A DNA stretch of 54,643 nucleotides from Candidatus Peribacteria bacterium (lineage in GTDB: Bacteria; Patescibacteriota; Gracilibacteria; UBA1369; LOWO2-01-FULL-3). The position numbers and the translations under genes are program-made. Below the pieces are notes generated by a model, which saw nothing but the letters and a program-made list of their open reading frames with translations, made no database searches and had not been told where the DNA came from. Numbering within the stretch: the first letter of the stretch is position 1; each line of letters begins with the position of its first letter. Below are positions 5,521 through 54,643 of this stretch, piece by piece. The DNA lies in the NCBI GenBank assembly GCA_943357285.1, contig CALRGJ010000008.1, positions 1 through 54,643 of the forward strand, given 5' to 3'.

Positions 5521-8046
5521 ATGGATAAAATAGACTTTAGATCACAACCAGACGTTCAAAGAATTCCATCAAAAGCTCCAAATAGACCTTGGAATTCTGG
5601 CATTATGAATACCATTGGAAAACTTCGTAGTTCTATTGGAATGATTGCTGCAGTGGGAACAATAGGTCTTTCTGCTGCTGCATGTGAAACTGATGAGAAG
5701 TCTGATAAATACGGTGATAGCGCGCAGTTTCAGGGTGATAGCTTGCCCGAGGATTCTACGTCTGCCGATAATACCGGAGGTGATGGCACGGACACAGCTG
5801 TAGACACTGATGCAAATATAGATCCACTAACGGGTTTAGTAATTTGTGATGAGCAGCATGCACTTACAGAGCAGTTTTTGGGATTAAGTGAAACATTGGA
5901 ACAATGTAAAGGTTGCCATACGGTAAATGGTGCTTGGAGATGGAATACTAGTTCTCCTGCTGCGCTTGAAGATTCCATGAAAGGCTTTAGTAAATTTGCT
6001 CGTATGAAAGCTGATAATGGACAGCCCTTTATTGTTGAACTTCCACAAGGACAAACTACCGTAGATGGTGTACTGAAAAAACATCAAGGTGGTCATAGAG
6101 ATTTGTCTGATTTAGATAAGCAGTTACTAACCTCTTATTCCGATTCTTTAGCAACTTACGATGCTGCAAATGGTGGAGAGAATGCACAATTGCCTGTCAT
6201 TAATACAAATTGTAATGACGGACAATTGCACATTACGCAGGAAGAATTTTTCCAGACTGTTGAAATGTTGTCCAATCAAGAAGTTTTAGCGAAATTCCTG
6301 AGAATGTTCGCGCCAAATTTACCTGAAAGTATTCCGAATGTAGACTCTAGCGAAATGCTAGCTGCAAGCATTCGTCAAGCTACTCACACACCTGCTTTTT
6401 ATAAATGGTTGGAGAATGAATTCAATGATATTACTCACGCTAGGAGTTTAAGCGATAAAAATACAGCGATCGATTCACTGACAAAAATGATTCCAAGCTT
6501 GAAGGCTAATTTGGTAGGTGCTGAGAATGCTGATGTTGCCAATAGTCTGAATGATTTACTTTTGTACATTGCCTTTAATGAATTGCCTCTTACCGAATTG
6601 CTCAAGGCTCAGTACATTGTTTTGCCTGGAGAAAAAATGAATAAAGATGACCCTAATTTTAATATTGCAGCACATTTAATTAAGGTCCCGGTGAACGAGC
6701 CACCAATTGCGGGAATGTTTACTCATCCGGCATGGTTACGTATAAATAATTCCACTGAGTCCAATCAAGACAGGGGACGCACTCTTCGGGCACTTAGATT
6801 TGCAATCGATTTTGATATTTTATCTTTGGGATCCCAGATGACTCCTAGCGATAATAAAAAATATAAAGATCCGGTAACTATTAATAATCCAGATTGTGCC
6901 GGATGTCATAATGGACAAGGTCATATGGATCAAATCGCTCCTATCTGGTCTAGATTTCCAGATGTAGATGGAAAATTTGATAGCTCTGATAATTTCAAGT
7001 TTCCTCCTGATCAACTTGTAGTTAGTTACAATGGACATAAAATTAATATCAATGCCAAGGACTCTGCCAGACAGCTGATGACATTGTTAGTATTGGATCC
7101 TGAAATGGACGAGAGTGCTCCGGATTTTAATCCAGATCGTCAGTATCCTTTTGCTCGTTCAATGGCAAAAATGACTTATAGAATGATTACTCACAATGAG
7201 CCACTTATCCGTCCAGCTGCAGGTGAAGCAAATTATGATGATAAATTATTAAGATATAATGCCGAGAGCGGATTTTTTAGAGATATGGCGAAATTTTTGA
7301 AAGCTAATAAATATAATTTCCGAGAACTAGTTGTTAAAATGGTTATGAGTCCACACTTTCGCGCTAATGGAAAATTGAATGCAACAATTACTCCTAATAG
7401 AGAAATTCAATTGGAAAATGTTGGTCCAAATTTAATTACGCCTGAAGAATTGGATGTGCGTTTGCATCAATTATTTGGTGATGATATTTTCAAATTGGGT
7501 ATTCATCAAATGGTCATGAAAGATCATTTTGTGGACCTAGGAGGTAGCGATCCTTTGGTTGCAAATAAGCGTAATTCTACGGGAGATTCAAGTAGGGAAT
7601 TGGCACTCAATGCCGTAGCTTTTAAGTGCGGTGCAGCCGTTGTTTCAGATCTCGCCAAACCAAATGCGCAGAGAAAGATTTTCAGCGCTCTAAAAGGACC
7701 TATTCAGGATCTTAAACCAAAGGTTAATTTTGAAGATACAGATACTATTCCGGAAGTTGAATTCCAAATGCGTCAGGTCTTTGTAAGAATCAGACACTTA
7801 GCACTTGGACAATTTAACTTGAGTACAAATGATAAATTGATTGATCAGGATTTCAAGAAGTGGTTGGAAATGTGGGAACAATACAAAGACGATTTAGGTA
7901 GCAAAAAAGTTGCGACATTGCAGCAAAGTGGAAATATCAAAGATGATGTATATGGAGTAATTAGAACTTGGGAAGCTTTTATGATTGATTTGATTGCTAG
8001 CTCGAAGTTTTATTTTAGTTCACCTGTTGAGGAGACTGAGGAATAG
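5521..8046 (+). CDS. Large lipoprotein with two c-type haem (CxxCH) motifs, DUF1588/DUF1592-like
   Basis: The first ATG follows the DUF1501 stop by six bases. An internal Met29 (at 5605) begins a better signal peptide ending in LSAAAC with Cys55 as likely lipid anchor, so the true start may be 5605. An acidic Ser/Asp/Gly linker follows. CKGCH (129-133) and CAGCH (about 459-463) are haem-c or metal-binding motifs. The C-terminal half, with a LITPEELDVRLHQLFG segment near 640, resembles the cytochrome-like DUF1587/1588/1592 proteins of Planctomycetes and Myxococcota. Length (841 aa) fits that group. It probably acts at the cell surface with the DUF1501 protein. No cytochrome maturation genes are visible here, so whether haem is bound is unknown. 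Confidence 0.75.
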   Translation: MDKIDFRSQPDVQRIPSKAPNRPWNSGIMNTIGKLRSSIGMIAAVGTIGLSAAACETDEKSDKYGDSAQFQGDSLPEDSTSADNTGGDGTDTAVDTDANIDPLTGLVICDEQHALTEQFLGLSETLEQCKGCHTVNGAWRWNTSSPAALEDSMKGFSKFARMKADNGQPFIVELPQGQTTVDGVLKKHQGGHRDLSDLDKQLLTSYSDSLATYDAANGGENAQLPVINTNCNDGQLHITQEEFFQTVEMLSNQEVLAKFLRMFAPNLPESIPNVDSSEMLAASIRQATHTPAFYKWLENEFNDITHARSLSDKNTAIDSLTKMIPSLKANLVGAENADVANSLNDLLLYIAFNELPLTELLKAQYIVLPGEKMNKDDPNFNIAAHLIKVPVNEPPIAGMFTHPAWLRINNSTESNQDRGRTLRALRFAIDFDILSLGSQMTPSDNKKYKDPVTINNPDCAGCHNGQGHMDQIAPIWSRFPDVDGKFDSSDNFKFPPDQLVVSYNGHKININAKDSARQLMTLLVLDPEMDESAPDFNPDRQYPFARSMAKMTYRMITHNEPLIRPAAGEANYDDKLLRYNAESGFFRDMAKFLKANKYNFRELVVKMVMSPHFRANGKLNATITPNREIQLENVGPNLITPEELDVRLHQLFGDDIFKLGIHQMVMKDHFVDLGGSDPLVANKRNSTGDSSRELALNAVAFKCGAAVVSDLAKPNAQRKIFSALKGPIQDLKPKVNFEDTDTIPEVEFQMRQVFVRIRHLALGQFNLSTNDKLIDQDFKKWLEMWEQYKDDLGSKKVATLQQSGNIKDDVYGVIRTWEAFMIDLIASSKFYFSSPVEETEE

Positions 8047-8253
8047 AGGCACGAAAAAACGTGCACGCTAAAAAGCTGAGCGCACGGCGCGAGGGCGCAA
8101 CGAAAAAAATGTGGCAAAGAAAAAGCAACTCGCAAGGTGTATGGCTTTTTCTGGGTACTTGTCGAATGAGGTACCCGATTTATTAGTGGGTCCGAATTCG
8201 AACGACCGAGAAAAAGTTTTTGAATTTTATATGAATTTTGGGAAATGGACGAG

Positions 8254-8290
8254 GGGGCCGGCCGCGGGCGCTTCTGATGCGGCCGGCCCC
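8254..8290 (-). terminator. GC-rich hairpin, terminator-like
   Basis: A perfect 12-bp stem GGGGCCGGCCGC (8254-8265) with its complement (8279-8290) and a 13-base loop. It lies downstream of the GC-rich lipoprotein gene in its direction of transcription but lacks a clean U-run. It also marks the shift in base composition. Confidence 0.55.
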
Positions 8291-8313
8291 TTCTCCATTC
8301 TTCGCTCTCACGC

Positions 8314-8357
8314 TCAGGAGTGCTGGCTATTTTGGTGTGAGTCACCAACACTCCTGA
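8314..8357 (-). terminator. Second hairpin after the GC-rich lipoprotein gene
   Basis: TCAGGAGTG (8314-8322) pairs with CACTCCTGA (8349-8357), with a further GGTG/CACC pair inside. It begins about 45 bases past the stop codon. It may help end transcription or protect the mRNA. Confidence 0.45.
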
Positions 8358-8400
8358 CTTTGCAGCTCAAGCTCCGAAGAAATGGAGCGAGCCACGAGGG

Positions 8401-10659
8401 TCACTTGGACGACGGCCAAGAGACCTGGAACGCGTTTCCCTGCGGCGAGGAATAGGCGTTCACTTTCTTCACGTTGGGGACGGCGCCCAACGTTGGCTTC
8501 GACGGAGCGGGGGAGACGACGTCAAAGTACCACGTCGCCGGCGCAGTCGCGGGGGTCATGTCTACCCCGACGACGTACGCCTTCAGCAAGCCAACGAACT
8601 GGCTACTGCTCTCCATCTTGACCACGTACGGCACCTCGCTGCACCAGACCTCCACGTACTGAGGCTTTTGCACACCTCCTGGACCATCCGGGGGGAGGGT
8701 GATCTGGACTGACTGATTGGGCGCATTCGCCGTCACGAGCCATCCATTACCGCCGTACTGCGCGTACATCTTGAGGCGGTGAGCAATGTCGCTCGGTCCG
8801 CACTCAGAGTCCTGGCAGTCGATCTTGCCGTCGCCGTCGTTGTCCACGCCGTCGCCGCAGATCTCACCGATTCCGCAACCCACGATTGTCGTGTGGGAGC
8901 AGGTGCCGGTGTTATCGCAGGCGTCCGTCGTGCACGGATCGCCATCGTCACACTTCAGTCCAGTCCCACTTGCGCAGGTACCGGCCGAGCAGACGTCACC
9001 GCTGGTGCAGACATCGCCGTCGTCGCATGCCGCGGTGTTGTTCACGAACGCGCAGCCCTTGGTCGGGTCACACGAGTCCGTTGTGCAGGGGTTGTTGTCA
9101 TCGCAGACGATGTTGCTATGAGTGCAGTTCGGCTGACTTGCGCCAGTATCGAACGTACACTTGTTGCCGTCATCGCACGCGACTGAATTTCCCTTGCACA
9201 CTCCCGCGAAGCAAACGTCGCCGACCGTACCAGGGTTGCTGTCATCACACATTGAGCCCGAGAGCACGAGGTTTAGGCAGCCGCCCATAATACTGTCGCA
9301 CGTATCCGTCGTGCAGGAGTTGCCATCATCGCAATTCTTCATGCCAGTTCCCACGCAGGTACCACCGGCATCACACTGGTCGCCGGTCGTGCACGAATCC
9401 ATGTCGTCACACGCCACGCCAGCCATTGGAGAGAACACGCAGCCCGTTGTCGGGTCACACGTGTCGCTCGTACAGGAGTTGTTGTCGTTGCAGACGGGAG
9501 CTACCCCGCCCACACAACTCCCGCTTGAGCACTTATCGCCGACCGTACACGCGTCGCCGTCAGTGCATATGCCCGAAGTGTCGGTGTGGACGCAGCCATT
9601 GGCTTTGTCACACGTATCCTTCGTGCATCCATTCTGATCGTCGCAGTTCACCGCCGTGTACGTGCACTTCACGCCACTAGCCGGGTCACCCGCGTCATCG
9701 GTACAGGCATTGTTGTCATCGCAGGGCGTGAGGGGCTTGATCCCCGCGCACACGCCATCTGCGCCACACATGTCGGTTTTCGTAGTCGAGTCGCCGTCAT
9801 TACACGACGTACCCGCTTGAACCGCGTGCTTGCAGCCGACATCGGGGCTACACGAGTCCTTCGTGCAGCTGTTCATGTCGTCGCAGTCCTTCGAAATCGC
9901 ACCAGGGACACACGCCCCAGCCACGCAGACGTCGCCCATGTGGCACATGTCGGCGTCTTCACAGGACTTTGCGTTGTTCATGAAGCTGCACTTGCCGGTG
10001 GCAGGATCGCACATGTCCGTCGTGCACCCGTTCTGATCGTTGCATTCCACTTTCTTGTGGACGCAGCCGAGAGTCGAGTCACACGTGTCGGTCGTGCAGG
10101 CATCCTTGTCATCGCAGTCTTTCTTGCTCGAGCCGGGCAAACATGCCCCGGCCGTACACTTGTCTCCCGTCGTGCACGCATCGCCATCGTCGCACGGCAG
10201 GAGATTGTTCACGTGCTTGCAGCCGTCGCCGGTCTGCAGCGGATCGCAAGCGTCCGTCGTGCAATCATTGCCGTCGCCGCAATATGCAGAGCCGGAGCCC
10301 GTACACATGCCGCTGATGCAGAGATCACCCGTCGAGCACTTGTTGCCGTCGTCGCACGCCTCGCCGTCCCCCTTCTGGGAGTGCGAGCAGGTGCCGTCGG
10401 CGTTCACGATGTCGATGGTGCAGGAGTTCTGGTCGTCGCAGGGCTTGCTTGCCCCGTCGACGCTATCCTGACCATCGCCATCGATCTTGCCGTCGGCGTT
10501 GTTGCTGTTGCCGTCGCCACCATTGCTGGCGTCGCCGGTTGCATCGGAACTCTGACCGTCCGATACTTGGGTCGTCCCATCATCTCCGCACCCGGCCACA
10601 AGGACCAGGAGCGCGACCAGCATGAGACTGCTGATCAAATTGAAGCGCGATTTGCGCAT
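8401..10659 (-). CDS. Cysteine-rich repeat lipoprotein, probably foreign
   Basis: The 752-aa protein has a lipoprotein signal (lipobox LVAGC, Cys about 24), a Gly/Asp/Asn/Ser linker, then more than a dozen units of the type CDDxNxCTxDxCDxxxGC alternating with CDDGDxCTxGDxCxxGxC. These resemble the Dictyostelium CTDC repeat and the Cys-rich surface proteins of Myxococcota. Near the C-terminus is GDGVDNDGDGKIDC, a motif common in myxobacterial proteins, followed by about 120 residues without repeats. Codon and base use are strikingly GC-rich compared with every other gene here. Its GGAGG lies five bases before the ATG, whereas neighbours lack such sites. It is probably recent transfer or an assembly join. 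Function is likely surface-exposed and calcium- or disulfide-stabilised; no enzyme motif is seen. Confidence 0.88.
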   Translation of the reverse strand: MRKSRFNLISSLMLVALLVLVAGCGDDGTTQVSDGQSSDATGDASNGGDGNSNNADGKIDGDGQDSVDGASKPCDDQNSCTIDIVNADGTCSHSQKGDGEACDDGNKCSTGDLCISGMCTGSGSAYCGDGNDCTTDACDPLQTGDGCKHVNNLLPCDDGDACTTGDKCTAGACLPGSSKKDCDDKDACTTDTCDSTLGCVHKKVECNDQNGCTTDMCDPATGKCSFMNNAKSCEDADMCHMGDVCVAGACVPGAISKDCDDMNSCTKDSCSPDVGCKHAVQAGTSCNDGDSTTKTDMCGADGVCAGIKPLTPCDDNNACTDDAGDPASGVKCTYTAVNCDDQNGCTKDTCDKANGCVHTDTSGICTDGDACTVGDKCSSGSCVGGVAPVCNDNNSCTSDTCDPTTGCVFSPMAGVACDDMDSCTTGDQCDAGGTCVGTGMKNCDDGNSCTTDTCDSIMGGCLNLVLSGSMCDDSNPGTVGDVCFAGVCKGNSVACDDGNKCTFDTGASQPNCTHSNIVCDDNNPCTTDSCDPTKGCAFVNNTAACDDGDVCTSGDVCSAGTCASGTGLKCDDGDPCTTDACDNTGTCSHTTIVGCGIGEICGDGVDNDGDGKIDCQDSECGPSDIAHRLKMYAQYGGNGWLVTANAPNQSVQITLPPDGPGGVQKPQYVEVWCSEVPYVVKMESSSQFVGLLKAYVVGVDMTPATAPATWYFDVVSPAPSKPTLGAVPNVKKVNAYSSPQGNAFQVSWPSSK

Positions 10660-41770: not shown

Positions 41771-42631
41771 TTAGCCTAATTCCCAAGAAATAAGCTGGAT
41801 GAGGTTTTTTACTTGTGAGTGATAAGTTTTAGGATAAGAGAATCCATAAACCAACCCTGAGATTCTTACTATCAAAAAAGCAGTTTCAGATCTAACAGGA
41901 TCATTTATAAAGAATGATGCTGATCCAAACTCGTTTGTTTCATTCAATTTCACATTCAAACCTTGAGAAGCTTTTAGCTTCAAATTCAGATAAACATCGT
42001 TGGCGCTGCTGCTAATTCCAATTTTAAAAATATAAACCTTGGCTAGGATCTCATCAATAGTTCTAATGTCGGTTTTTGTCACCTCCGCATCTTCTAAGTC
42101 GCTAATATCAATAGTCTTAAATAATCTGCCATCCAAAGGTTCATCCTCTAGATATCCGCCAGTAAAACCGGCGCTCTTAATTTGCTCCTCTCTTAGGTAA
42201 ACATTAGCTGAAACTGTAGGTGTGGAATTTTCGTCCTCGAAATCCTTTACTCCAGATGTATTTGTGGTCTGAGTAGGCGATTGAGTAGTCACATTTTTAG
42301 GATCAGTGAAATTATCTGGATCCAAGAAATCCGCACCATCCTCATCTAAAACCGGCAAAGCTATGGGGGACTCCACCTCTTCGACAGTGGGTAAAACTGT
42401 ATTATCAGCTCCGAGCTTATTGAAATCCATGCCATCGCTTCCAAGAACGTTAGTGGCAATACTTCTTTTGGAGTCTAGGCTATCAGGAAGAGTAAGCTTC
42501 ATGTTTTCACCCTCAGCGGCCACATTTTTATCAGTACTGAATCCAGGAATATAGTCTTTTGCCATTAGTTCAGCTAAAACAACGACAACGACAATCGTAA
42601 GTATAACAGTAAAAATTGTAAACTTTTTCAT
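41771..42631 (-). CDS. Membrane-anchored protein between nusG and rplK, unknown
   Basis: From Met 42631 (MKKFTIFTVIL) the protein has 286 aa: one N-terminal hydrophobic helix (about 4-24), then an acidic, Thr/Pro/Asn-rich disordered linker to about 145, then a domain of about 135 residues with beta-type alternation and no cysteines. No family is recognised. The upstream in-frame TTG overlaps the nusG stop region and is less likely. Its place inside the otherwise classical secE-nusG-rplK-rplA order is unusual. Confidence 0.7.
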   Translation of the reverse strand: MKKFTIFTVILTIVVVVVLAELMAKDYIPGFSTDKNVAAEGENMKLTLPDSLDSKRSIATNVLGSDGMDFNKLGADNTVLPTVEEVESPIALPVLDEDGADFLDPDNFTDPKNVTTQSPTQTTNTSGVKDFEDENSTPTVSANVYLREEQIKSAGFTGGYLEDEPLDGRLFKTIDISDLEDAEVTKTDIRTIDEILAKVYIFKIGISSSANDVYLNLKLKASQGLNVKLNETNEFGSASFFINDPVRSETAFLIVRISGLVYGFSYPKTYHSQVKNLIQLISWELG

Positions 42632-42656
42632 AGAAAAATTAGGAATGGGATCCAAA

Positions 42657-43393: not shown

Positions 43394-43442
43394 TTGGGAT
43401 AAATTAATGTAAACCTAAAAAGCCTTTGCGCTTCTGTTGAGA

Positions 43443-43472
43443 AATATAGCACCTGCACCTCCGACAATGCAA
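43443..43472 (-). promoter_or_regulatory. secE-nusG promoter
   Basis: TTGCAT (43472-43467), an 18-base spacer and TATATT (43448-43443), about 50 bases before the secE ATG. Confidence 0.6.
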
Positions 43473-43481
43473 GCTATTTTC

Positions 43482-43510
43482 TTGAGAAAAAACCTGAAAT
43501 ATGGTAGTAT
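43482..43510 (+). promoter_or_regulatory. Promoter of the pilin-PKD locus
   Basis: TTGAGA (43482-43487), a 17-base spacer and TAGTAT (43505-43510), 19 bases before the ATG at 43530. It is divergent from the secE promoter. Confidence 0.7.
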
Positions 43511-43529
43511 ATATGGATTAATTAATTCA

Positions 43530-44516
43530 ATGAAACACACAAAAACAAAAAAACTTGCCAAACTCGTTCTTGAGTTTTTAGTAGTTATGGGGCTCATTAG
43601 TATTTCCCTCCATTTAAGCGCCTTTGCGGCTGGTTCATTCCTGCCTGATAATAGTGAGGCGGTGAAGGTCTATACCAGTGGGCAAATTCCTGGTGCCGAA
43701 GCCAATCTCTCTGGAGATGACGGTTTTGCTATCTTGAAAAAAGCCGTGCTTGGTGGTCTTCAATACGTAAAAATTCTCACTGTTGTTGTGGGAATTCTTT
43801 TTATAACAATTATGGGTTACACGCTAGTTACCAATGGTGGTAACGAAGAGGATGTGACTAAGGCAAAAAAGGGTATGATTTTTACGATCGTAGCCTTTGT
43901 TATGATAAGTATGTCTCAAAACATCGCCAAGATTTTTGATATGTCCGATGGCTCGCTTCTTGGAAGCCCTCAGGAGATTCTCAATAGAGTGCACATCTTC
44001 GATAAGCAAACCGAAATTTTCGTTACTTTTGTTAAGTATGTAATCGGCACATATGCTGTTGTTCAGATCGTAAGGCATGGGGCCAAAATGGTTACCGCCG
44101 GTGCCAATGAAGAAGAAATGGGTAAGAGAAAAAAGGCTATTTTGTTTAACCTTGCGGGCCTTCTACTTATATATTTAGGAGATATCGCAATAAATAAGGT
44201 ATTCTATAAAGTAGACAAAAGCGTTTACTCAGGAATTACCGGAGTTCATCCATATGCAGATGCTAAAGAGGGTGTTTCTCAGCTTGTGGGTATTACGAAT
44301 TTAGTTGTTACTTTTGTCGGTCCAGTAGGAGTCTTAATGTTGATAGTTGGAGCTGTTATGTATGCTACTGCGGGGGGACAAGACGAGCAAATGCAAAAGG
44401 CTAAGAGGATCTTGATTACAGCCGGTGTAGGACTACTAATCATCTTTGGAGCTTTTGCTGTTGTTAGCACAGTTCTTGCAGGAAAATTGCAAGGTATGGG
44501 ATCAATAACTCAATAA
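43530..44516 (+). CDS. Triple T4SS-pilin-module membrane protein A
   Basis: I start at Met 43530 (MKHTKTKK), followed by a signal/anchor helix. The mature part contains three copies of a module made of hydrophobic helix, polar turn with G/A-G-x-(E/D)E-x3-K-A/R-K-K, and a second hydrophobic helix. The turns are GGNEEDVTKAKK (about 102-113), AGANEEEMGKRKK (about 190-202) and GGQDEQMQKAKR (about 281-292). Single-module proteins of this kind are the VirB2/TrbC-like T4SS pilins of Patescibacteria. A three-module fusion of 328 aa suggests a membrane oligomer or a pre-linked pilin array. It is the first gene of the locus and ends one base before the next start. Confidence 0.8.
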   Translation: MKHTKTKKLAKLVLEFLVVMGLISISLHLSAFAAGSFLPDNSEAVKVYTSGQIPGAEANLSGDDGFAILKKAVLGGLQYVKILTVVVGILFITIMGYTLVTNGGNEEDVTKAKKGMIFTIVAFVMISMSQNIAKIFDMSDGSLLGSPQEILNRVHIFDKQTEIFVTFVKYVIGTYAVVQIVRHGAKMVTAGANEEEMGKRKKAILFNLAGLLLIYLGDIAINKVFYKVDKSVYSGITGVHPYADAKEGVSQLVGITNLVVTFVGPVGVLMLIVGAVMYATAGGQDEQMQKAKRILITAGVGLLIIFGAFAVVSTVLAGKLQGMGSITQ

Positions 44517-44517
44517 T

Positions 44518-45531
44518 GTGAAAAATTTTATCAAAAAATTAGTTTTATGCCTTATGTTTGTTAATCTTGGGTTAACTATAAACATGGCGATCGCGAATGC
44601 AGCACCAACCGCTCCGACTAGTAGTGAATTACTTGCGCCATTAAAATACCTAGAAAAAATTGGCACGGACACCAAACTTCCGAACTACGTTGATACCGGT
44701 ATTCATCCTGACGCAGCCGCTGAAACAAAATCCGGAGTAGCTACTGTTACGAGTCCTATTTATTTTGCTATCGATCTTTTTAGATATCTGATTAGTACGA
44801 TTGCTTTCATCTACATCATTATTTACGCAGTCAAGCTTATCTCTACCAGTAACGAAGAAGATGCAGGTAAGGTAAAGGATGGGCTTATTATGGCGATATT
44901 GGGATTCCTCATTATTCAATTGGCCGATATTGCTGTGAAAAAAGCATTTTTTGGAGAACAGGGCGAAGCCTTTCAGGACGTTGCCACTACAAAACTTTAT
45001 GCTGCCGAAACGGTTAATCAAATTCGCGGAATTGTTGGCTTTTTCGAATATTTTCTGGGAGCAGTTGCCGTGCTTGTGCTTATCGTTAGAGGGTTCACTC
45101 TTATCACCAGTGCCGGCAACGAAGAAGATATTGGTAAGGCAAAAAAACAAGTTCTCTACGCAATGGCCGGTTTAATAGTAGTTGGTCTATCCGAAGTTGT
45201 GGTAAGGGGAGTGATTTTCCCTGCAAACGGTAGTCAATTGCCGAGTACTCAAATGGGTATGCAGATTTTATTTAACATCACGAACTTCTTGGTTGGTTTC
45301 GTTGCCATCGCTTCGTTTGTAATGCTTTTCTACGGTGGATATAGTTATGTTGTATCAGGAGGAAATGAAGAAGTTAAAGACAAAGTTAAGAAAATTATTA
45401 TGGGTGCGGTGATTTCCCTGATTCTTTCAATGGGAGCCTATGCCGCAGTGAATACTTTTATAAAATTTGATAACCCGGAAAACGCCTCTAGTACGACCAC
45501 TCCTCCCACTTCTACTACAAATGTTCCCTAA
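44518..45531 (+). CDS. Triple T4SS-pilin-module membrane protein B
   Basis: A GTG start follows the previous stop by one base. The 337-aa protein has an N-terminal signal/anchor helix and three helix-turn-helix modules with turns TSNEEDAGKVKDG (about 107), SAGNEEDIGKAKK (about 198) and SGGNEEVKDKVKK (about 280), each followed by a hydrophobic helix ending in a short amphipathic tail (IADIAVKKAFF type). A Ser/Thr/Pro-rich tail closes it. The layout is the same as protein A but the sequences differ, so the pair may form a hetero-oligomer. Confidence 0.8.
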   Translation: MKNFIKKLVLCLMFVNLGLTINMAIANAAPTAPTSSELLAPLKYLEKIGTDTKLPNYVDTGIHPDAAAETKSGVATVTSPIYFAIDLFRYLISTIAFIYIIIYAVKLISTSNEEDAGKVKDGLIMAILGFLIIQLADIAVKKAFFGEQGEAFQDVATTKLYAAETVNQIRGIVGFFEYFLGAVAVLVLIVRGFTLITSAGNEEDIGKAKKQVLYAMAGLIVVGLSEVVVRGVIFPANGSQLPSTQMGMQILFNITNFLVGFVAIASFVMLFYGGYSYVVSGGNEEVKDKVKKIIMGAVISLILSMGAYAAVNTFIKFDNPENASSTTTPPTSTTNVP

Positions 45532-45545
45532 AACATTTAAAGGCA

Positions 45546-45574
45546 TTGCCAGAACGACAGATAACCCATATAAT
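45546..45574 (+). promoter_or_regulatory. Internal promoter before the 1652-aa gene
   Basis: TTGCCA (45546-45551), a 17-base spacer and TATAAT (45569-45574), ending 11 bases before the ATG. Confidence 0.75.
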
Positions 45575-45585
45575 CTCCGCGAAAC

Positions 45586-48500
45586 ATGTCGTTCGTACTT
45601 TTGAAAAAATTCCTCAAAAAGTCCATCATAGTCTCATTTTTTACCACCCTTCTGTTGGTAATTTTGTTGCCTATGGCTCAAGCCTTCGATTTTTCTAGCG
45701 GAGGTGATTGGGGTAAGCTTTTTAGTGCAGGTGATCAGAATGCAATTTCATTTACCCAGTATAGTGGGCAATTGGCTCAGTTGAGTAATGAAGGTTATGA
45801 CCCAGCACTTACTTCTTCCTCTGACCTTAAAGAATTCGTTATTAAGGTTGTAAATTTTGCTCTTGGCTTTCTTGGGTTGATCGCCGTTTTGATTGTGATT
45901 TATGGAGGTGTCCTATATGTGACGGCCGCCGGAGAAGATGAGAAAGTTGGAAAAGGAAAAAAAGCCATTGGCTACGCAGCAATAGGATTGCTTATAGTTA
46001 TGGGCTCTTATGCTTTTGTTAACACTATTATAAAAGGAGGAACCGGCGGTGCAGATCAAGGGAATGGTGCCACTGCTATTACCGCAACTTCAGGGTTTAA
46101 TGCTTCCGCCGAACAAGTCCGCGCACTCGCTGCTCAGATTTATAGCGGATATTCTTTCTTGGCTGAAAGTACTAACGAATTGCAGAATATTAAGAATGAT
46201 ATTAGCAAGGACTCAATTGCTCCGAATAATTTTCCAAGCAAAAATTCTATTTTAACTTTCTTGGGTAGCGTTGGTAGCAAGTTAAACACAATGAAGTCTA
46301 AGCTTCCTAGTTTTTCTGTTGCCGAAGCGAGTATTAATAAGGCCTTGAGAGAACTAGATCAAGATATTGATAAAATTAATAACGTTGGGTCTGAAAAATA
46401 CATGACTTTGGATTCCAGCGGTAAGCCGATTTACTGTGATGTTCAGAAAGAGAGAGCTTTCTTGCAGGGAGTGCAGGCATACTCTGATCAGCAAATTTGT
46501 TCTAATGACGATGTGTTGGGAGCCGGCAACGAAAGTGATATTAATTATGACCATTATTATGCAGAAGGTTTGCATGAATCATGGACTGCAATTTATGCTA
46601 AGTATCACGATCCTAAGGAAGATGATTCTAATTTCTACAACGGAATTATTACCAAGATTTCTGCTTCATATCACGATGACATGCACAGAATTCTTCTTGA
46701 GCTTAGGGATATTTATAGTAATTATTCAAACATCAGTGCGATAGGTGGTGAGGGTAGTGTGGCGGCAGGAGCTTACAAGTTGATGATGAGTGATACTAAT
46801 GGTTATGGATATGCATTCAACCCTCCGGGCTCTGCGGAGGTTACCGATCAGAACGGTGGATTCCTTCATGACGTTGATGCTTGGAGTATCAAATCTGAAA
46901 TTGATAAGACTGGGTCCCTGATGGTTTCCGGTCTCAAGCAACAGGCGATTCTTTACACTGAATTAAAAAAATTAAAATTTGTACAAGCCCGTCTTACGGC
47001 TGATACTATTGAAGGTTCTGCTCCTTTGACTGTTACTTATAATGCCCTTGCTACTGTTGATCCTTCTGGAGGTAGCGTACAGGGTGACAACATTGTTTGG
47101 GATCTAGCCGGTACTCAAACAGTTTCCAATCTAACAAGTGGCAACTACAATACGAAGACGGCTACTTTGATAGGAACCAATATGCTTTCTCCTGTTGATA
47201 ATTCTGTTGATTGTACATTTGCTCCGGCTGGAAAAGACGCTACGGATTTTATTGGAGCAACTTCTAAGAGATGCGTTTACAATAAACCCGGTACCTACAC
47301 AGCGGCAGTAAAAATCAATTCCAATGATCCTACTAAATTTGCTCCTGGAATTAGCATTTTGACTATTAAAGTTAGACCACCAACTACTAAGATTGAGTTA
47401 ACTGTTCAGGCCAGCGGCGAGCAAGAAGCTCACACCGTAATGCATTATGAAAACGATGTGCTCCTTGATGATTTAAGAACTGTACAAGTTACAGCTACCG
47501 ATGCGAAAAATGGCATTACTTTTGATGCCACTAAGACTCAGGACGTAAAACAATATAAGTGGGATTTTGGTGATGGTAAAACAAGCGAATTTAGTAGTTC
47601 CGGAAAAATCACTCATAATTATAAAGAGCCTGGAAAATATCAGATAAGATTGGAGGTTCTAAGTATTTTGGATGTAAAAGACAGTAAGATTTTTACTCTG
47701 GAAATTTCTTCCATTGCGGCTAAGCTCAAGGTTAATCCTTCCAGTGGTAGCAATATTAATGACACCGTCCTTTTTGACGCTAGTGCTTCAAAATCAGATC
47801 TTGGAAAAATTACCAATTTCAAATGGACTATTTCTCCAAGTGCTGGTCAGGCTATACCTCAGTCACTGCAGGATCAGATTAGTAAAGATTATCCATTTAC
47901 TGACGAGGGAGCTGCCTTGAAGACTCTCACTCACGCTTTCAAGTATCCACTTAATTATGACATTACTGTTGAGGTGAAAGACGATGCAAATAATAGCGCT
48001 AAGGCCTTTATTCAAAATTTCCGTGTTCGTTCTCAGCCACCAGTTGCTCAGTTCGATTTCAAGGCTCAGGACAAAACTCAACCAGGTACATTCTATTTTG
48101 ATGGTACGAAGAGTTATGATCCGGATGGTACCAAGGATTTTACATTCTCTTGGTCTGTAAATTCTAATTGCGACTCTACGACATGTAAGCTTATTGATAA
48201 ACCTGGTAATACTTTTATCAGCAAGTCTCCAATTATAAAATTCAAAAAACCTGGATCTTATGCCGTGACACTTAAAGTAATTGATCCAATTAACCCAAAG
48301 GAGTCGACGGAATTATCAAAGACTATAAAAGTAGAAAACGTTCTCGATATCGCTTGGGATCCTGATCAACAGGCGACGGCAGTAATAGATGACAGTGGCC
48401 AGGCTGAAATTAGATTTGAATTGGTTAGTGATACTGCAAAAACTTATGAAATAAATTTTGGCGACGGTGAAACTAGTAACGGAGATTTTGGCGATAAAAT

Positions 48501-50544
48501 TACTCACGTCTATACAAAGGCTGGTAAGTATGTGGCCAAAGTTACTGTTTATGATGAAAGTGATAAAGAGAATGTAATAGATAAGAAAATATTTATTAGT
48601 GGCGGTGATCAACCAATAGCTAAGGCTAGATTTTTTATTAATAGCGAAGAGGTTCAAGATTTATACGAGCCTATAAAAGTTAGTAAGCAGGACGTTCTTA
48701 CTTTTGATGCACTGGATTCAAAGAATGCTGATGGTAGTACGAAAAATTTGAAGTATAGCTGGGATTTTGGTGACGAAAAGAACAGTTCCAAAATGAAAGC
48801 GACCCACACTTATAGAGAACTAAGTCCTAAGGATCCGGGTTATTTCAAAGTGAAATTAAGTGTATATGATAGTAAAGATACTGAGAAAATGGCTTCTGAT
48901 GAATTCCAAGTTGAGGTTGTTAATATGCCACCTTCATTTTCTTCTATTTCTGCTGTGCCTCAGCCAGTAAATAATACGCTTGTAACTCCTGTTTCCGCCA
49001 TTATGAAAGTATATGGCGCAAACGATCCCGATGGCCAAATAGTAAAATACAAATGGTGGTATTTTGATGTTAAAAATCCGGATCAACAATTCGGCGTTCA
49101 AATTACTAATTCCCCAACTTCAAAAATAACAATTGGTACTCGCGGAAAAGAAGGTGATGAAATTACTTATGGTTTTGGTTTAGAGGTTACTGATTCAGAC
49201 GGACTTACTTATTCAAATGAAGAAGCAATTCAGCAAGGCCAAGTAGCTAAGCTTGATGTTGTGAATGGTTCCAATGCTCTTCCTAGCGCAAAATTCAGTG
49301 TAAACAGCACATCCGTATTTGCAGGAGACAAAGTTACATTCACAAGCAGCTCAACTGATCCAGACGGAAAGATTGCTCAATATATTTGGGATTTTGATGG
49401 TGATGGTTTCTTTAACGACGATCCGACAGAAAAGAGTTCAGTTGAGAATGTTTACACAAAAATAAATAAGGTTGGCTACGATGTGCGCCTTAAAGTTGTT
49501 GACGATAAAGGTGGTGAATCAATTTCTGAACCAATCAAGGTACACGTAGATTCTTTGGCCAAACCTCCTACTGCCGGGTTTACATTTACTTCAGTTCCGG
49601 GCAGCGATGGTTTGAAAATTAAATTTACTAATACTTCTGTTGCTGATACCAAAGCAGGTGCTGAAATTCTTAGTTATCAGTGGGATTATGATGCTGATTC
49701 CTTATTGACTACTGCGGATAGTAGCGGAGATGGAAAAAAAGATAATGATATTGATTCTCAAGCCAAAGACCCTGAGCGTCTATATGGAGAAAAGGGAAAT
49801 TATAAAGTGAAATTGACCGTAACCGACAGTCAGGGAAACAAAGATGACGTTACTACTGCTATTAGAATTCCAATGGCAAATCCTCCTCAAGTTTCTTTTA
49901 CATCTACAAATAAAGGTGGGCAAGTTGTTTTCACTAATACTTCAAAAGGTGACGTAGCAAGCGGTAGCATTATCACGAAAAATATTTGGGATTTTGATCT
50001 AGCCACAGATTCAGACGGAGACGGAAAAAAAGATAACGACAATGATTCTGCATTAAAAGATCCAACTTTTGCTTACCCAAAACAAGGAACTTATAAAGTA
50101 AAATTAACGGTAATAGATAACCAAGGGGGAGTGAGTTCTGTGGTGAATGATGTGTCCTTCTCGGCCGATGCTCTTCAGCCTGCAGGCACTCAGCCCGCAG
50201 TTAAGGACGGTGCAGCTGCTAGCGGAGTATTAAAGGCTATCCTAGTTAGTGATCCAGCGCCAACACTAGATGGAGCTGTTTATCTAATTGGAAAGAGTGG
50301 TACTGTTAAATTTGATTTTTCTAAATCTGTGGGAGCTGTTCAGTATTACATCATTGATAAAAATATTTATTTTGACACCGATGGAGATGGAGATAAGACC
50401 AATGATCAAGATTTCAAGACCAGCTTACCGGGTACTTGGTCAACTAATTTTGATAAATCTTGGGGACAAATTGTAGTAAAATTAACAGTAACCGATATTT
50501 ACGGAAATAAAAGCTTCGCAAATCAGGAAATTAAATTTCAATAA
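45586..50544 (+). CDS. Giant surface protein: one T4SS-pilin module plus PKD/Ig stalk
   Basis: The 1652-aa protein starts with a signal helix (about 12-34, MAQAF). One pilin-like module follows (about 85-150) with turn AAGEDEKVGKGKK (about 114-126) between two hydrophobic helices. A helical, mostly soluble part spans about 165-460. A run of PKD/Ig-like domains then reaches the C-terminus, with the words WDFGDGKTSEF, INFGDGETSN, WDFGDEKNSS, WDFDGDGFF, WDYDADSL and WDFDLATDS. Two late domains carry DSDGDGKKDNDNDS-type acidic loops that probably bind calcium. The pilin module would hold it in the assembly or membrane while the stalk extends outward. It has its own promoter. Confidence 0.82.
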   Translation: MSFVLLKKFLKKSIIVSFFTTLLLVILLPMAQAFDFSSGGDWGKLFSAGDQNAISFTQYSGQLAQLSNEGYDPALTSSSDLKEFVIKVVNFALGFLGLIAVLIVIYGGVLYVTAAGEDEKVGKGKKAIGYAAIGLLIVMGSYAFVNTIIKGGTGGADQGNGATAITATSGFNASAEQVRALAAQIYSGYSFLAESTNELQNIKNDISKDSIAPNNFPSKNSILTFLGSVGSKLNTMKSKLPSFSVAEASINKALRELDQDIDKINNVGSEKYMTLDSSGKPIYCDVQKERAFLQGVQAYSDQQICSNDDVLGAGNESDINYDHYYAEGLHESWTAIYAKYHDPKEDDSNFYNGIITKISASYHDDMHRILLELRDIYSNYSNISAIGGEGSVAAGAYKLMMSDTNGYGYAFNPPGSAEVTDQNGGFLHDVDAWSIKSEIDKTGSLMVSGLKQQAILYTELKKLKFVQARLTADTIEGSAPLTVTYNALATVDPSGGSVQGDNIVWDLAGTQTVSNLTSGNYNTKTATLIGTNMLSPVDNSVDCTFAPAGKDATDFIGATSKRCVYNKPGTYTAAVKINSNDPTKFAPGISILTIKVRPPTTKIELTVQASGEQEAHTVMHYENDVLLDDLRTVQVTATDAKNGITFDATKTQDVKQYKWDFGDGKTSEFSSSGKITHNYKEPGKYQIRLEVLSILDVKDSKIFTLEISSIAAKLKVNPSSGSNINDTVLFDASASKSDLGKITNFKWTISPSAGQAIPQSLQDQISKDYPFTDEGAALKTLTHAFKYPLNYDITVEVKDDANNSAKAFIQNFRVRSQPPVAQFDFKAQDKTQPGTFYFDGTKSYDPDGTKDFTFSWSVNSNCDSTTCKLIDKPGNTFISKSPIIKFKKPGSYAVTLKVIDPINPKESTELSKTIKVENVLDIAWDPDQQATAVIDDSGQAEIRFELVSDTAKTYEINFGDGETSNGDFGDKITHVYTKAGKYVAKVTVYDESDKENVIDKKIFISGGDQPIAKARFFINSEEVQDLYEPIKVSKQDVLTFDALDSKNADGSTKNLKYSWDFGDEKNSSKMKATHTYRELSPKDPGYFKVKLSVYDSKDTEKMASDEFQVEVVNMPPSFSSISAVPQPVNNTLVTPVSAIMKVYGANDPDGQIVKYKWWYFDVKNPDQQFGVQITNSPTSKITIGTRGKEGDEITYGFGLEVTDSDGLTYSNEEAIQQGQVAKLDVVNGSNALPSAKFSVNSTSVFAGDKVTFTSSSTDPDGKIAQYIWDFDGDGFFNDDPTEKSSVENVYTKINKVGYDVRLKVVDDKGGESISEPIKVHVDSLAKPPTAGFTFTSVPGSDGLKIKFTNTSVADTKAGAEILSYQWDYDADSLLTTADSSGDGKKDNDIDSQAKDPERLYGEKGNYKVKLTVTDSQGNKDDVTTAIRIPMANPPQVSFTSTNKGGQVVFTNTSKGDVASGSIITKNIWDFDLATDSDGDGKKDNDNDSALKDPTFAYPKQGTYKVKLTVIDNQGGVSSVVNDVSFSADALQPAGTQPAVKDGAAASGVLKAILVSDPAPTLDGAVYLIGKSGTVKFDFSKSVGAVQYYIIDKNIYFDTDGDGDKTNDQDFKTSLPGTWSTNFDKSWGQIVVKLTVTDIYGNKSFANQEIKFQ

Positions 50545-50556
50545 ACCACTAATTAT

Positions 50557-52830
50557 ATGGCAGAAACAAATCCAAGCGACCCAAAAAAGATTCAGGACTT
50601 TGAGACAGAAGAATCCGCCCCAACAATTAAGCGCTACACAAACGATATAAAACCGAATTCAACCCCACCGGCGCCAGCAGTGCAGCCAGCAAAAGTAGAT
50701 CCGACAGGACCTGCGCCAATTGCTCAAGCTCCCGTGCCACCGGCAACTCCTATTGTTAAACCAATTACACCTGTAACAAAAACCGTTCCAGTCCCGCCTG
50801 ACCCAGCTGCAAAGAAGAAAGCTATTCTCGGATGTCTCGGAGGTTTTGGGGGCCTAATGTTGATTTTTTTAATCTTGTCATTTGTCTTCTTGGCTCAGAC
50901 TGGAAATGGTACTAGCCCAATCGCAAAACTTCTCGGCATCAATGAAGGAGTGTTTATTAATGGACTAATTACTTTTGTTCATATTATTTTCATTCTTGTC
51001 TCACTCGTTGCTTTCGTCTTTACCATGGTCGGTCTTTTCAAGGCTAGCATGGTTAGAAGTGATGATAAGGATGGCAGAAAGGCAGCTCTACGTACAAGCC
51101 TTATCTCTGGAGTTTTATTATTCTTTATTTTAATCGTTTGGGGATTTACTTATGTTTACCTCGATTCAAAAAGAGTACAACTTGCACCTGAATACAGCGA
51201 ACAAGTCGTAACAACTCCACAGGAAACACTTGGACTTACAGCACCTATAGAAATTAAATTTGATGCCAGCAACGTACCTGTTGATAGAAATCGTTACCAG
51301 GTTGTTTCTCACGATTGGGATTTCGGAGACAAGTCCACAGGAACAGGACAAATTACTTCTCACATTTATAAAGAGAAGGGAACCTATGATGCAAAATTAT
51401 TATTAACAGTAAAAGAAAAAAGTACCGGAAAACTTTCTACTGGTGGAGAATATCACACAACAATTTCAATTGAGAATTTGGAACTTTCAGCAATTTTTAC
51501 AGTTGATAATCAGTCTGGAGAAGCTCCTTTGGAAGTGAATTTTGATGCTAGCTCTTCCGCTGATCCTGATGGAACAATTGAGAAATATGAGTGGGACTTT
51601 AGTGATGATGGACAATACAAAGACGGTAAAGGAAAAACCATCAAACACACTTTTGAAAAGATCGGAACTTATAAAGTTTCTCTTCGTGTCACTTCCACAA
51701 CAGGAAGATCAAATACTTCCGAAAAAGAAATCAGTGTAGTTGAATCAATTACGCCTCTAGCCGTAATAAAAGTTGTTGATGAACCGAAAGTATTTAGCTT
51801 GGGGCAAAGCTATGTTTTCAATGGTGACGACTCCAATTCTCCAAACGGAAAAATTTCTAAGTATGAATGGTTATTCAGTGATGCTGCAGGCAAACCTGAG
51901 ACTACAAAAACGGTTTCTCATATTTTTAAAACTGCTGGCACACATCAAGTAACTTTGAAAGTCACTGATGAAAAAGGCAAAGTTGGGGAGATCCAGAAAG
52001 TGATTACAATTGATGCTCCAAAAGGAGTGCCAAAGGCTAAAATTACTTCTAATCCATCCTTTGATTCCAAGACAGGTACTCTAACAGGAAAGGCACCATT
52101 CACTGTAGCCTTTGATTCTAAGGGCAGTACAGACAGCGACAACAACATAGTGGATTACCAATGGGATTTTAACGGTGATGCAAAATTTGATGCCTTCGGT
52201 CCAACTACAAGCTATATCTTTACAGAGGATGGTGAATTCAATGTTACATTAAATGTTATTGATTCTGACAAAAATATTGGTAGCGCTACAATGACGGTAA
52301 AAGTTGATCCACAAGGAATTATGCCAAGTCTAAAGGCAGATATTCTAGATGGAAATATTCCACTAAGTGTAAATTTTGATGCAAGTGCTTCTAGTTATAC
52401 AAAGGGTCAAATAAGCGGATATAAATGGGACTTTGGAGACGGCACGCCGGTAAAAATGGGGTCCGCTACTCTTACACACAAATACACTGCGATTGGCACT
52501 TTCACGGCTTCTGTAACAGTACTTGGTTCAGATAATAGTTCTGCTACGAAATCAGTAACTATCAACGTTCGTGAAATTCCATTAAGCGCTTGTTTTCTTT
52601 CAGTATTTGAAAAAGGTCCAGCACCTTTGAACACTAGTTTTGATCCTAGCTGTTCCACTGGTACAGCCACAAGTTACTCTTGGGATTTCGGAGACGGTAC
52701 AACTTCCACACAAGTCAAACCTAGTCATTCATTTGTGAAAGCTGGAATCTATAAAGTAACTTTAGAGTTATCTGATGCTCAAAATACTATTAGCAAATCA
52801 GAAGTAACAATAACTGTAACCGAAAAATAA
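50557..52830 (+). CDS. Pro-rich head, membrane helices and six PKD domains
   Basis: The 757-aa protein has no signal peptide. The first 85 residues are Pro/Ala/Lys-rich and likely cytoplasmic. Three hydrophobic helices follow (about 89-112, 130-157, 177-203). Six PKD-type domains then run to the end, with WDFGDKSTG, WDFSDDGQY, WLFSDAAGK, WDFNGDAKF, WDFGDGTPV and WDFGDGTTS, each closing with a YxVxLxVxD strand. The topology puts the PKD stalk outside and the Pro-rich tail inside, like a transmembrane linker. It starts 12 bases after the giant gene; its stop overlaps the next start. Confidence 0.85.
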   Translation: MAETNPSDPKKIQDFETEESAPTIKRYTNDIKPNSTPPAPAVQPAKVDPTGPAPIAQAPVPPATPIVKPITPVTKTVPVPPDPAAKKKAILGCLGGFGGLMLIFLILSFVFLAQTGNGTSPIAKLLGINEGVFINGLITFVHIIFILVSLVAFVFTMVGLFKASMVRSDDKDGRKAALRTSLISGVLLFFILIVWGFTYVYLDSKRVQLAPEYSEQVVTTPQETLGLTAPIEIKFDASNVPVDRNRYQVVSHDWDFGDKSTGTGQITSHIYKEKGTYDAKLLLTVKEKSTGKLSTGGEYHTTISIENLELSAIFTVDNQSGEAPLEVNFDASSSADPDGTIEKYEWDFSDDGQYKDGKGKTIKHTFEKIGTYKVSLRVTSTTGRSNTSEKEISVVESITPLAVIKVVDEPKVFSLGQSYVFNGDDSNSPNGKISKYEWLFSDAAGKPETTKTVSHIFKTAGTHQVTLKVTDEKGKVGEIQKVITIDAPKGVPKAKITSNPSFDSKTGTLTGKAPFTVAFDSKGSTDSDNNIVDYQWDFNGDAKFDAFGPTTSYIFTEDGEFNVTLNVIDSDKNIGSATMTVKVDPQGIMPSLKADILDGNIPLSVNFDASASSYTKGQISGYKWDFGDGTPVKMGSATLTHKYTAIGTFTASVTVLGSDNSSATKSVTINVREIPLSACFLSVFEKGPAPLNTSFDPSCSTGTATSYSWDFGDGTTSTQVKPSHSFVKAGIYKVTLELSDAQNTISKSEVTITVTEK

Positions 52831-52928
52831 TGTCTAAAAAATCCAATAAACTATTCGCTGTTCTAGCTTTAATTTCTCTTTTGGCAATTATAGCCGGAAT
52901 GATAGCACCTGTATTTCAAAACTTTTAA
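52830..52928 (+). CDS. 32-aa single-span membrane miniprotein
   Basis: The stop and start overlap as TAATG. The peptide has a basic start (SKKSNK), one hydrophobic helix (about 8-28) and a short polar end (QNF). The tight overlap with the previous gene, the nine-base gap to the next and the clean hydrophobic span support it as a real gene. It may be a small subunit or regulator of the membrane complex. Confidence 0.65.
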   Translation: MSKKSNKLFAVLALISLLAIIAGMIAPVFQNF

Positions 52929-52937
52929 TTTTAATAT

Positions 52938-54643
52938 ATGGCCATCCCTCAAACTAATAGTAAAAAGACAAGCTTTCTCGCCTTTGCAATAATTGCCTTA
53001 TTAGTTGTTGGGACATTGGGTTACTATCTTTGGCTTCAGGCTGGCACAAGCACTGGCAATCCTCCATTTTTACATGTACCTAAACAAACTCTCAAAGGTC
53101 AGCTAATTTCAGGTGATGTAATTTGTAAGATACCTGGACTATATAGCTTCAGCGATTCCGAAGTTTCTAATTACACCAAACCTGCCGGAACAACTGACGC
53201 TGATGCCAAAACTCTTTCTGAAGGTATTCACATTTACCATGCTAATCAGGAAATGACAGTAAGTGGGATATTAAAGAGCATCAAGCCAACAAGTGGCAAC
53301 AAGATAATGATTGCCTACTATCCATCAAACGGGAACAGCAACACAAATTTTGCTGTTTATCCTACAGATCTTCAAGGAGAGAAAAAAATTCTTTCTCCTG
53401 AAAACTATAAGATTCCGGCAAACGAAGGGTTTGTAATTTTTTCCTGCCAGAATACAAAAATCTATAAGGTTTTGGATGAAAGAACTGATGGTACAGGTTT
53501 CCCAACAAATTTTAGCAAGGCAGATAGTGGAACTCACTGGATTCTTTTCAGCGGATGGAAAGATGGTTCAAACGCTAGCACTATAAAAAATGCAATTGCC
53601 CCATATAATCTTAAATCTGTTTGGGTTCAGACAGACGAAGGGTTCAAATTTGAAGAAGTTAATATCAGCAATTTGGCGACTAATGGAAACTATCGCATGA
53701 TTTGGGCGGAAATATATGCTAATCCAATAAAGACTCAAACCGATCCTCAAAAAACTATCTGTGAACAGAATCCATCTTGTACAAGCCACAGCTGCATCCC
53801 TTTCTGGGGTGGATACACCTGCAATATGTCCGCAACCACCGGCACAGGTGTAGCCAGCGGAGTTGATTCATGCAATACGACAGGAGGCGCATTTAATCTT
53901 TCCGGATGCTACGCCAAAAGTGGTACTCCATATCCAGCGACGGCAATGTCATCTGGAAAAACTGATTACTGCAATACAACAGGAGGAAGCTATAATTTCT
54001 CTGGATGCCTTAGCCAGAAATCAACTGCTGGAAGTGGTGTGGCAAGCGGAGTAGATGTCTGCAATACGACTGGAGGAAGCTTTAATTCTACTGGATGTTT
54101 TGTTAGCGGAGGCGTTCCTTATCCTCCATTAAAGACTGCACCTACCGCACCTCTCGGCACGGGCTTACCGGATTATTTTTCAGTGAACACTTGCAGCACT
54201 CAATGTAACTATTCTAATTATACTTGTAAGCAGCCTCAACTCAGTGAACAGTGGTATTGTATAAAAAATGGCACCAGCCTGCCAGCTTCAATCACTACAC
54301 CTGTTTCAAATGCTGAATTGAAAATAACTGGTACTAAAACAGGGAAACTTACGACTATTAATGGCCAAAGCTACGTGGAAGTGAGTTTTGATTTTTCACT
54401 GACCGGTACACTAAAACCTTCTGATAAAGTAATTTGGGATTTTGGTGATGCATCAACGGGCACAATAAAAGGTAAGGATTGGTTCTGGGGCAATGATATT
54501 CTTCCTACAAATACTACAAACCACAATTACACAAAATCCGGTAATTACACTGTCACGGTAAAAGCAGTTTCAGATTCAGGTAACGGAAGCACTATAACTA
54601 CCGCTTCAACTTCTTTGCCATTTTCAATGCCAAGTGTTTCTCC
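52938..54643 (+). CDS. Membrane-anchored Cys-repeat/PKD surface protein, cut by window edge
   Basis: The reading frame is open from the ATG at 52938 to the end (568 codons seen). An N-terminal anchor helix (about 13-34) is followed by a domain of about 240 residues without clear relatives. A Cys-rich region (about 275-410) holds three repeats of the form (GVASGVD)xCNTTGGxxNxxGC, spaced by 25-40 residues, plus further cysteines. A PKD-type domain with VIWDFGDAS and HNYTKSGNYTVTV lies near the end. It is the last visible gene of the locus. The Cys repeats probably make disulfide loops exposed to the outside. The 3' end lies beyond the window. Confidence 0.82.
   Translation, partial: MAIPQTNSKKTSFLAFAIIALLVVGTLGYYLWLQAGTSTGNPPFLHVPKQTLKGQLISGDVICKIPGLYSFSDSEVSNYTKPAGTTDADAKTLSEGIHIYHANQEMTVSGILKSIKPTSGNKIMIAYYPSNGNSNTNFAVYPTDLQGEKKILSPENYKIPANEGFVIFSCQNTKIYKVLDERTDGTGFPTNFSKADSGTHWILFSGWKDGSNASTIKNAIAPYNLKSVWVQTDEGFKFEEVNISNLATNGNYRMIWAEIYANPIKTQTDPQKTICEQNPSCTSHSCIPFWGGYTCNMSATTGTGVASGVDSCNTTGGAFNLSGCYAKSGTPYPATAMSSGKTDYCNTTGGSYNFSGCLSQKSTAGSGVASGVDVCNTTGGSFNSTGCFVSGGVPYPPLKTAPTAPLGTGLPDYFSVNTCSTQCNYSNYTCKQPQLSEQWYCIKNGTSLPASITTPVSNAELKITGTKTGKLTTINGQSYVEVSFDFSLTGTLKPSDKVIWDFGDASTGTIKGKDWFWGNDILPTNTTNHNYTKSGNYTVTVKAVSDSGNGSTITTASTSLPFSMPSVS

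Follow-up and report, generated by a model that had tools for sequence, protein, structure and literature searches.

The way in which Patescibacteria make contact with other cells and feed on them is still poorly understood; parts of type IV secretion systems (T4SS) and of pili are among the few components found to be essential for it in one cultivated species. In Southlakia epibionticum, the genes of the VirB4 locus, PrgI, VirB6 and a pilin array have been reported as essential for epibiotic growth (PMC12102498, PMC12857230). In the class Gracilibacteria, the T4SS genes are reported to be dispersed, TrsD and VirB3 not to lie near virB4, and VirB6 to be absent; the same survey of 2025 found no adhesins such as PrgB in the phylum, and the pilin arrays it describes are made of separate small genes, with no PKD protein and nothing like the genes reported here (PMC12102498). 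Our study concerns a locus of six genes, named A to F, at the end of contig CALRGJ010000008.1 of a Candidatus Peribacteria bacterium (GCA_943357285.1). As judged by comparing the sequences of related loci, its conserved core is A-B-C-D in fixed order, usually with E, and F lies outside it. In a class with a dispersed T4SS and reportedly no VirB6, the locus provides a concrete candidate for the surface part.

The window, that is, the whole stretch of DNA that was analyzed, is the entire contig (C8; 54,643 bases), one of the 25 contigs of a 1.21 Mb genome. A preliminary description of this DNA had proposed six genes on one strand with gaps of 54 bases or less. All six open reading frames (ORFs) were confirmed between 43530 and 54643; they are consecutive on the + strand, run to the contig end, and are separated, in order, by 1, 54, 12, -1 and 9 bases. 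The features are the following, with lengths in amino acids (aa):

43394 to 43529, no strand: divergent intergenic region between secE (- strand) and gene A, read from the sequence; the same arrangement, with secE/nusG, occurs in most Peregrinibacteria loci.
43530 to 44516, + strand: gene A (328 aa), signal sequence and three T4SS-pilin hairpins (PF18895, 55.9 bits; transmembrane positions).
44518 to 45531, + strand: gene B (337 aa, GTG start), signal sequence and three T4SS-pilin hairpins (PF18895, 71.4 bits; NF045849; AlphaFold2 model).
45586 to 50544, + strand: gene C (1652 aa), one pilin hairpin (45826-46023), a variable helical region and a PKD stalk (PF18895, 32.4 bits; PKD_4, 210 bits).
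50557 to 52830, + strand: gene D (757 aa), disordered Pro-rich N-terminus, three transmembrane helices and six PKD domains (PKD_4, 280 bits; AlphaFold2 model).
52830 to 52928, + strand: gene E, miniprotein of 32 aa with a single transmembrane segment (ORF; conservation 3' of D).
52938 to 54643, + strand: gene F, variable accessory surface protein with a single transmembrane segment, Cys repeats and a C-terminal PKD domain, cut by the contig end (ORF; PKD profile).

Gene A is read from the in-frame ATG at 43530, its frame being already open from a TTG at 43437; the ATG of E shares the final base of the stop codon of D, and the frame of F is still open at 54641. Scans for promoters and terminators gave chance-level results only.

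The pilin and PKD readings of the preliminary description were upheld by profile searches with cut-offs of 26.6 bits for PF18895 and 23.5 bits for PKD. The whole-protein scores of A, B and C all exceed the former, and C, D and F all exceed the latter, F with one PKD domain of 25 bits that accompanies its CNTTGGxxNxxGC repeats. The locus holds seven hairpins, three in A (six-frame matches at 43761-43919, 44019-44177 and 44289-44471), three in B (44767-44931, 45013-45204 and 45265-45432) and one in C, and only the weak middle hairpin of A, at 19.8 bits, falls under the cut-off. B also passes the NCBIfam model NF045849, a pilin-like protein of Mycoplasma integrative and conjugative elements, with 44.8 against a cut-off of 40. 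Transmembrane segments were called from a hydropathy window, which gives A and B a signal sequence followed by six more hydrophobic segments each. The turns of their hairpins are Lys-rich, of the form GxxEE...KAKK, and the E...K.K turn is kept in every hairpin class. The idea that these are chance membrane hairpins is ruled out by two profile libraries and by their recurrence in relatives.

The AlphaFold2 model of B shows three long helical hairpins at moderate confidence (mean predicted local distance difference test score, pLDDT, 68). For D, it shows a disordered N-terminus, three transmembrane helices and six beta-sandwich domains, the PKD part reaching a pLDDT of about 90; by sequence, the PKD domains resemble solved PKD structures of collagenases and of an S-layer protein. 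A sequence search of the PDB with the B profile returned no match, nor did a search of PHROGs. PamR (NF058578), a pilus protein of the candidate phyla radiation, was considered as an identity for D and rejected, as it scored 41.1 bits where a full-length match of over 300 is needed, the best stretch lying inside one PKD domain; no match to it over the cut-off was found in 21 genomes.

The gene order was compared across about 40 related loci of Ca. Peregrinibacteria and Ca. Peribacteria, the groups to which the named relatives found by sequence belong. The loci read comprise 20 relatives from whole genomes and 19 named from genome contigs; the relatives are mostly metagenome-assembled genomes, and their genes were called as longest ORFs. 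In most of these loci, A, B, C and D keep the same order and strand, and the start of the block is usually divergent from secE-nusG-X-rplK-rplA. Identity within the genus is 75-86% for A, B, C and D over their length. In a wider sample at E-value ≤ 0.001, all 99 relatives had a match to B and 95 of them a match to D, although the weak matches may be other PKD or pilin proteins; in at least 60 of the 99, strong matches to both share a contig and a strand and lie no more than about 12 kb apart. The co-occurrence of at least four genes in relatives, which the preliminary description had put forward as the test of a system, was thus borne out for A-D. The genes 3' of D differ from genus to genus, while A-D stay. 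We also observed that a contig binned as Bacteroidetes (L079, JAJRSV010000178.1) carries a complete locus of the Peregrinibacteria type; it has probably been misbinned in the public record.

The domain composition is as regular as the gene order. With profiles built in our study, 81 of the 83 A/B-type proteins that are complete were found to contain exactly three hairpins each, and all 38 complete D-type proteins have exactly six PKD domains along with three to four transmembrane segments; C-type proteins have one hairpin and 8-12 PKD domains, with one exception. It is important to note that these counts express constancy and not independent events, because the proteins counted belong to the very families on which the profiles were built, and a few genomes are present twice. 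In two families of the same class (f21 and f24), the AB pair and the CD pair are on different contigs and both are present, and several genomes of a third (f19) have a triple-pilin pair at one place and a D-type protein at another, the latter with no adjoining C-like giant. Because the order is kept, the domain counts are fixed, and AB and CD are both retained when unlinked, we regard A-D as a probable functional unit.

Outside the class, the profile of D, which covers its transmembrane and PKD parts, matched through the PKD part only, among the matches listed, and the B profile found mostly single hairpins. Some other classes of Patescibacteria have pairs of Cys-rich proteins, one of about 700-850 aa and the other of about 1900-3350 aa, both with a single T4SS-pilin hairpin at the head (L152 28-12370; L153 6901-20000; L155 7259-15578; L162, L163 and L164); close to the L152 pair, the one checked for that, lies a histidyl-tRNA synthetase gene (hisS). 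Because of these pairs and of the way the B and D profiles behave outside the class, we read pilin-headed giants as a theme of the phylum, and the PKD version with triple pilins as that of this class. The locus also points to a wider set of pilin-headed giant surface proteins in other classes.

The smallest gene, whose reality the preliminary description had already proposed, is conserved. A peptide lies directly 3' of D in 20 of 35 loci, or in 18 of 31 once duplicate genomes are set aside; E-type peptides have 27-40 aa and a single transmembrane segment; they begin with a basic stretch and have a Pro, often as AP, close to the other end. A profile from 13 of them recovered five further copies among 8136 short ORFs, with E-values from 1.5e-12 to 1.4e-4 (duplicates uncounted), all directly downstream of D, one of them as the start of an 87-aa ORF; every remaining short ORF had an E-value of 0.069 or more. 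Since the profile search recovered further copies, and all of them directly 3' of D, we consider miniprotein E to be real.

For the six-gene unit that had been suggested, our results retain A-D, usually with E, and set F aside. Within the genus, the identity of F is 35-37% and is confined to the 260 or so residues at the N-terminus, the C-terminal part being replaced, for example by fibronectin type III domains instead of Cys repeats and PKD; in other genera unrelated genes occupy its place, and large Cys-rich proteins with a single transmembrane segment recur near there. F was therefore rejected as a core member, being divergent inside its genus and replaced by unrelated genes elsewhere. F and two homologues within the genus (L024 9977-12940 and L025 9761-11653) share the N-terminal module of about 260 aa and carry different C-terminal domains, an arrangement that, read from the sequences, suggests domain swapping. 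The overall pattern fits a constant chassis, A-D, with exchangeable contact proteins, and a variable F could track the partner organism.

The preliminary description had excluded a standard T4SS since no VirB4 was visible, an argument that does not hold even though the observation does. There is no VirB4 in the window region or in the loci of the relatives, and the same genome encodes one copy on another contig (C3; 855 aa; NF045971, 379.7 bits against a cut-off of 325). About 57 kb beyond it is PrgI (PrgI/VirB3; C3 61012-61278; 58.3 bits), and the gene beside PrgI matches TrsD with 32.1 bits (E-value 9.5e-8), under the cut-off of 200. VirB4 is present in 138 of 143 genomes of the class, and PrgI in 32 of 41 relatives. 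Because VirB4 is elsewhere in the genome and dispersal has been published for the class (PMC12102498), the missing ATPase in the window is no argument against a T4SS link. An ATPase past 54643 had also been envisaged; the contig ends there, and the downstream genes of the relatives are variable, with no conserved T4SS gene among those read. In three genomes (G032, G043 and G052) VirB4 was not found, which is not evidence of loss because the contig of G032 stops shortly after gyrA, and in the other two gyrA, too, escaped detection.

Several observations were made around these dispersed genes. PrgI and the TrsD-like protein form a two-gene unit (L145, C3:52001-72000, about 7977-9287, - strand) between lepA and an apparent rRNA operon, far from virB4, and this unit recurs in relatives. 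In relatives (L050-L059), virB4 is near gyrA without neighboring T4SS genes, and a gene for an S-layer-homology and S41 peptidase protein adjoins it in most. On contig C15 of the same genome (L010 8155-11915), a PilT ATPase gene is followed directly by five T4SS pilin genes, each separate and with a single hairpin, so that type IV pilus and T4SS-type pilin genes are mixed. Protein X (294 aa; 41771-42655, - strand), between nusG and rplK, has one transmembrane helix and, at its C-terminus, a conserved domain of about 130 aa, and keeps its place in the nusG operon of relatives; it was considered as a VirB8-like partner and discarded, as it matches no Pfam family consistently. NCBIfam gave no match to it.

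On this basis, we propose that A-D, with E, form one class-specific integral-membrane and surface complex built from the T4SS (VirB2-like) pilin hairpin and serving as the surface part of the dispersed T4SS, a proposal whose chances we judge to be evenly balanced. A, B and C would enter the membrane via Sec by their signal sequences, with the GxxEE...KAKK turns facing the cytoplasm as in VirB2-like pilins. The seven hairpins of each A:B:C set (3+3+1) could then pack side by side, as a bundle in the membrane or a short pilus base, perhaps assembled by VirB4-PrgI, from which the stalks of C and D would project outward at set lengths and span the S-layer or wall. The tiny transmembrane partner E may stabilize D or the bundle, and the fast-changing F-like proteins would make host- or surface-specific contacts. 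The likely power source would be the unlinked VirB4 with PrgI and the TrsD-like protein, which we infer, because A-D are unlinked to these three in every locus read. The product would probably be a permanent device on the cell surface with which other cells are touched, and it may have a role in host attachment or uptake. Taken one step further, the locus would represent a machine of the envelope that occurs throughout the class and has so far gone undescribed, with a set subunit composition (two triple-pilin proteins, a pilin-headed giant stalk, a six-PKD rod and a miniprotein), acting as a contact or uptake device toward hosts with exchangeable outer proteins such as F; we offer this extension tentatively, as a possibility that falls somewhat short of even.

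Some results weigh against this proposal. No A-D locus read is physically linked to VirB4, PrgI or the TrsD-like gene, so the coupling of A-D to VirB4 and the T4SS is likewise something that we infer and that none of our findings proves. Family f25 has VirB4, and a triple-pilin (A5-type) match at E-value ≤ 1e-15 was found in one of its genomes only. Fold searches with the moderately confident B model gave no pilin match, and since generic helical bundles were the sole matches, we conclude nothing from them. The proposed topology rests on hydropathy and on the analogy with pilins, and the loop charge counts are only weakly informative.

Among other explanations, the one that survives best is a static anchoring or adhesion layer, with the hairpins as membrane anchors and the PKD stalks tying the cell to the S-layer, wall, neighbors or surfaces, in which neither an ATPase nor transport would be involved. 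Such a layer would suit a locus devoid of an ATPase and PKD domains that resemble those of an S-layer protein and of collagenases, and giant surface proteins with PKD, DUF11 and fibronectin domains have been reported in Vampirococcus (PMC8080830); moreover, D has no pilin and yet is found in f19 loci without an adjoining C-like gene. However, plain anchors would need neither exact triple hairpins class-wide in two proteins nor conserved E...K.K turns, and VirB4 is nearly universal in the same genomes; we consider this explanation unlikely, if still to be reckoned with. We regard as improbable a divergent VirB2/VirB6-type channel module, where A and B, with seven transmembrane segments each, would replace VirB6 in a complex moving DNA or protein across the membrane. 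Both proteins match pilin profiles, no VirB6 family is among their Pfam and NCBIfam matches, and structure searches brought up no outstanding channel-like fold, against which stand the reported absence of VirB6 homologues in Gracilibacteria (PMC12102498) and the fact that A and B, both polytopic and conserved, have a size that would suit this role. That the four genes are merely neighbors by inheritance, without joint function, in the slowly changing region of secE-nusG-rplK-rplA that the locus adjoins, is very improbable, as AB and D or CD are kept as units where separated, and genes past D change freely while A-D stay.

Compared with known systems, the proposed surface complex is closest to the dispersed, MPF-FATA-related T4SS of Patescibacteria (Quinonero-Coronel et al. 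2025, PMC12102498; Wang et al. 2023, cited there), with which it has in common the PF18895 pilin, scattered components and the same genomes encoding VirB4, PrgI and a TrsD-like protein; the published arrays consist of separate small pilins, whereas here three hairpins are fused per protein and accompanied by a pilin-headed PKD giant (PMC12102498). Conjugative pili of the VirB2/TraA type and the Mycoplasma protein Mbov_0395 (NF045849) also have two-helix hairpin subunits, but the subunits that polymerize in VirB2/TraA pili have a single hairpin, which the triple fusions A and B do not, and A-D combine fixed triple fusions with membrane-anchored stalks. Type IV pili, also present in the same genome, are likewise surface appendages and have been linked to host contact in Saccharibacteria; they use single-helix pilins, in contrast to the hairpin pilins of A-D, and the locus has no assembly ATPase, platform protein or prepilin peptidase. 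None of the ORFs A-F matches a PilB, PilC or PilD family, as expected of a type IV pilus operon, and PilT is elsewhere in the genome. With Foldseek, the D stalk is matched best by the grappling hook protein GhpA of Aureispira (9flw and others), beta-sandwich chains on the surface of a predator; with 12-18% identity and low template-modelling scores (TM-scores), this likeness is generic, and we do not claim homology. The giant membrane proteins of Vampirococcus lugosii, from a related lineage, contain PKD, DUF11 and fibronectin domains and are not described as a fixed operon with pilin hairpins (PMC8080830). The literature searched, outside of which fall most subscription papers and preprints, contains no description of an A-D complex. 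Its building blocks, nevertheless, belong to families already described, and the setting in which it most likely works is the patescibacterial T4SS as known so far.

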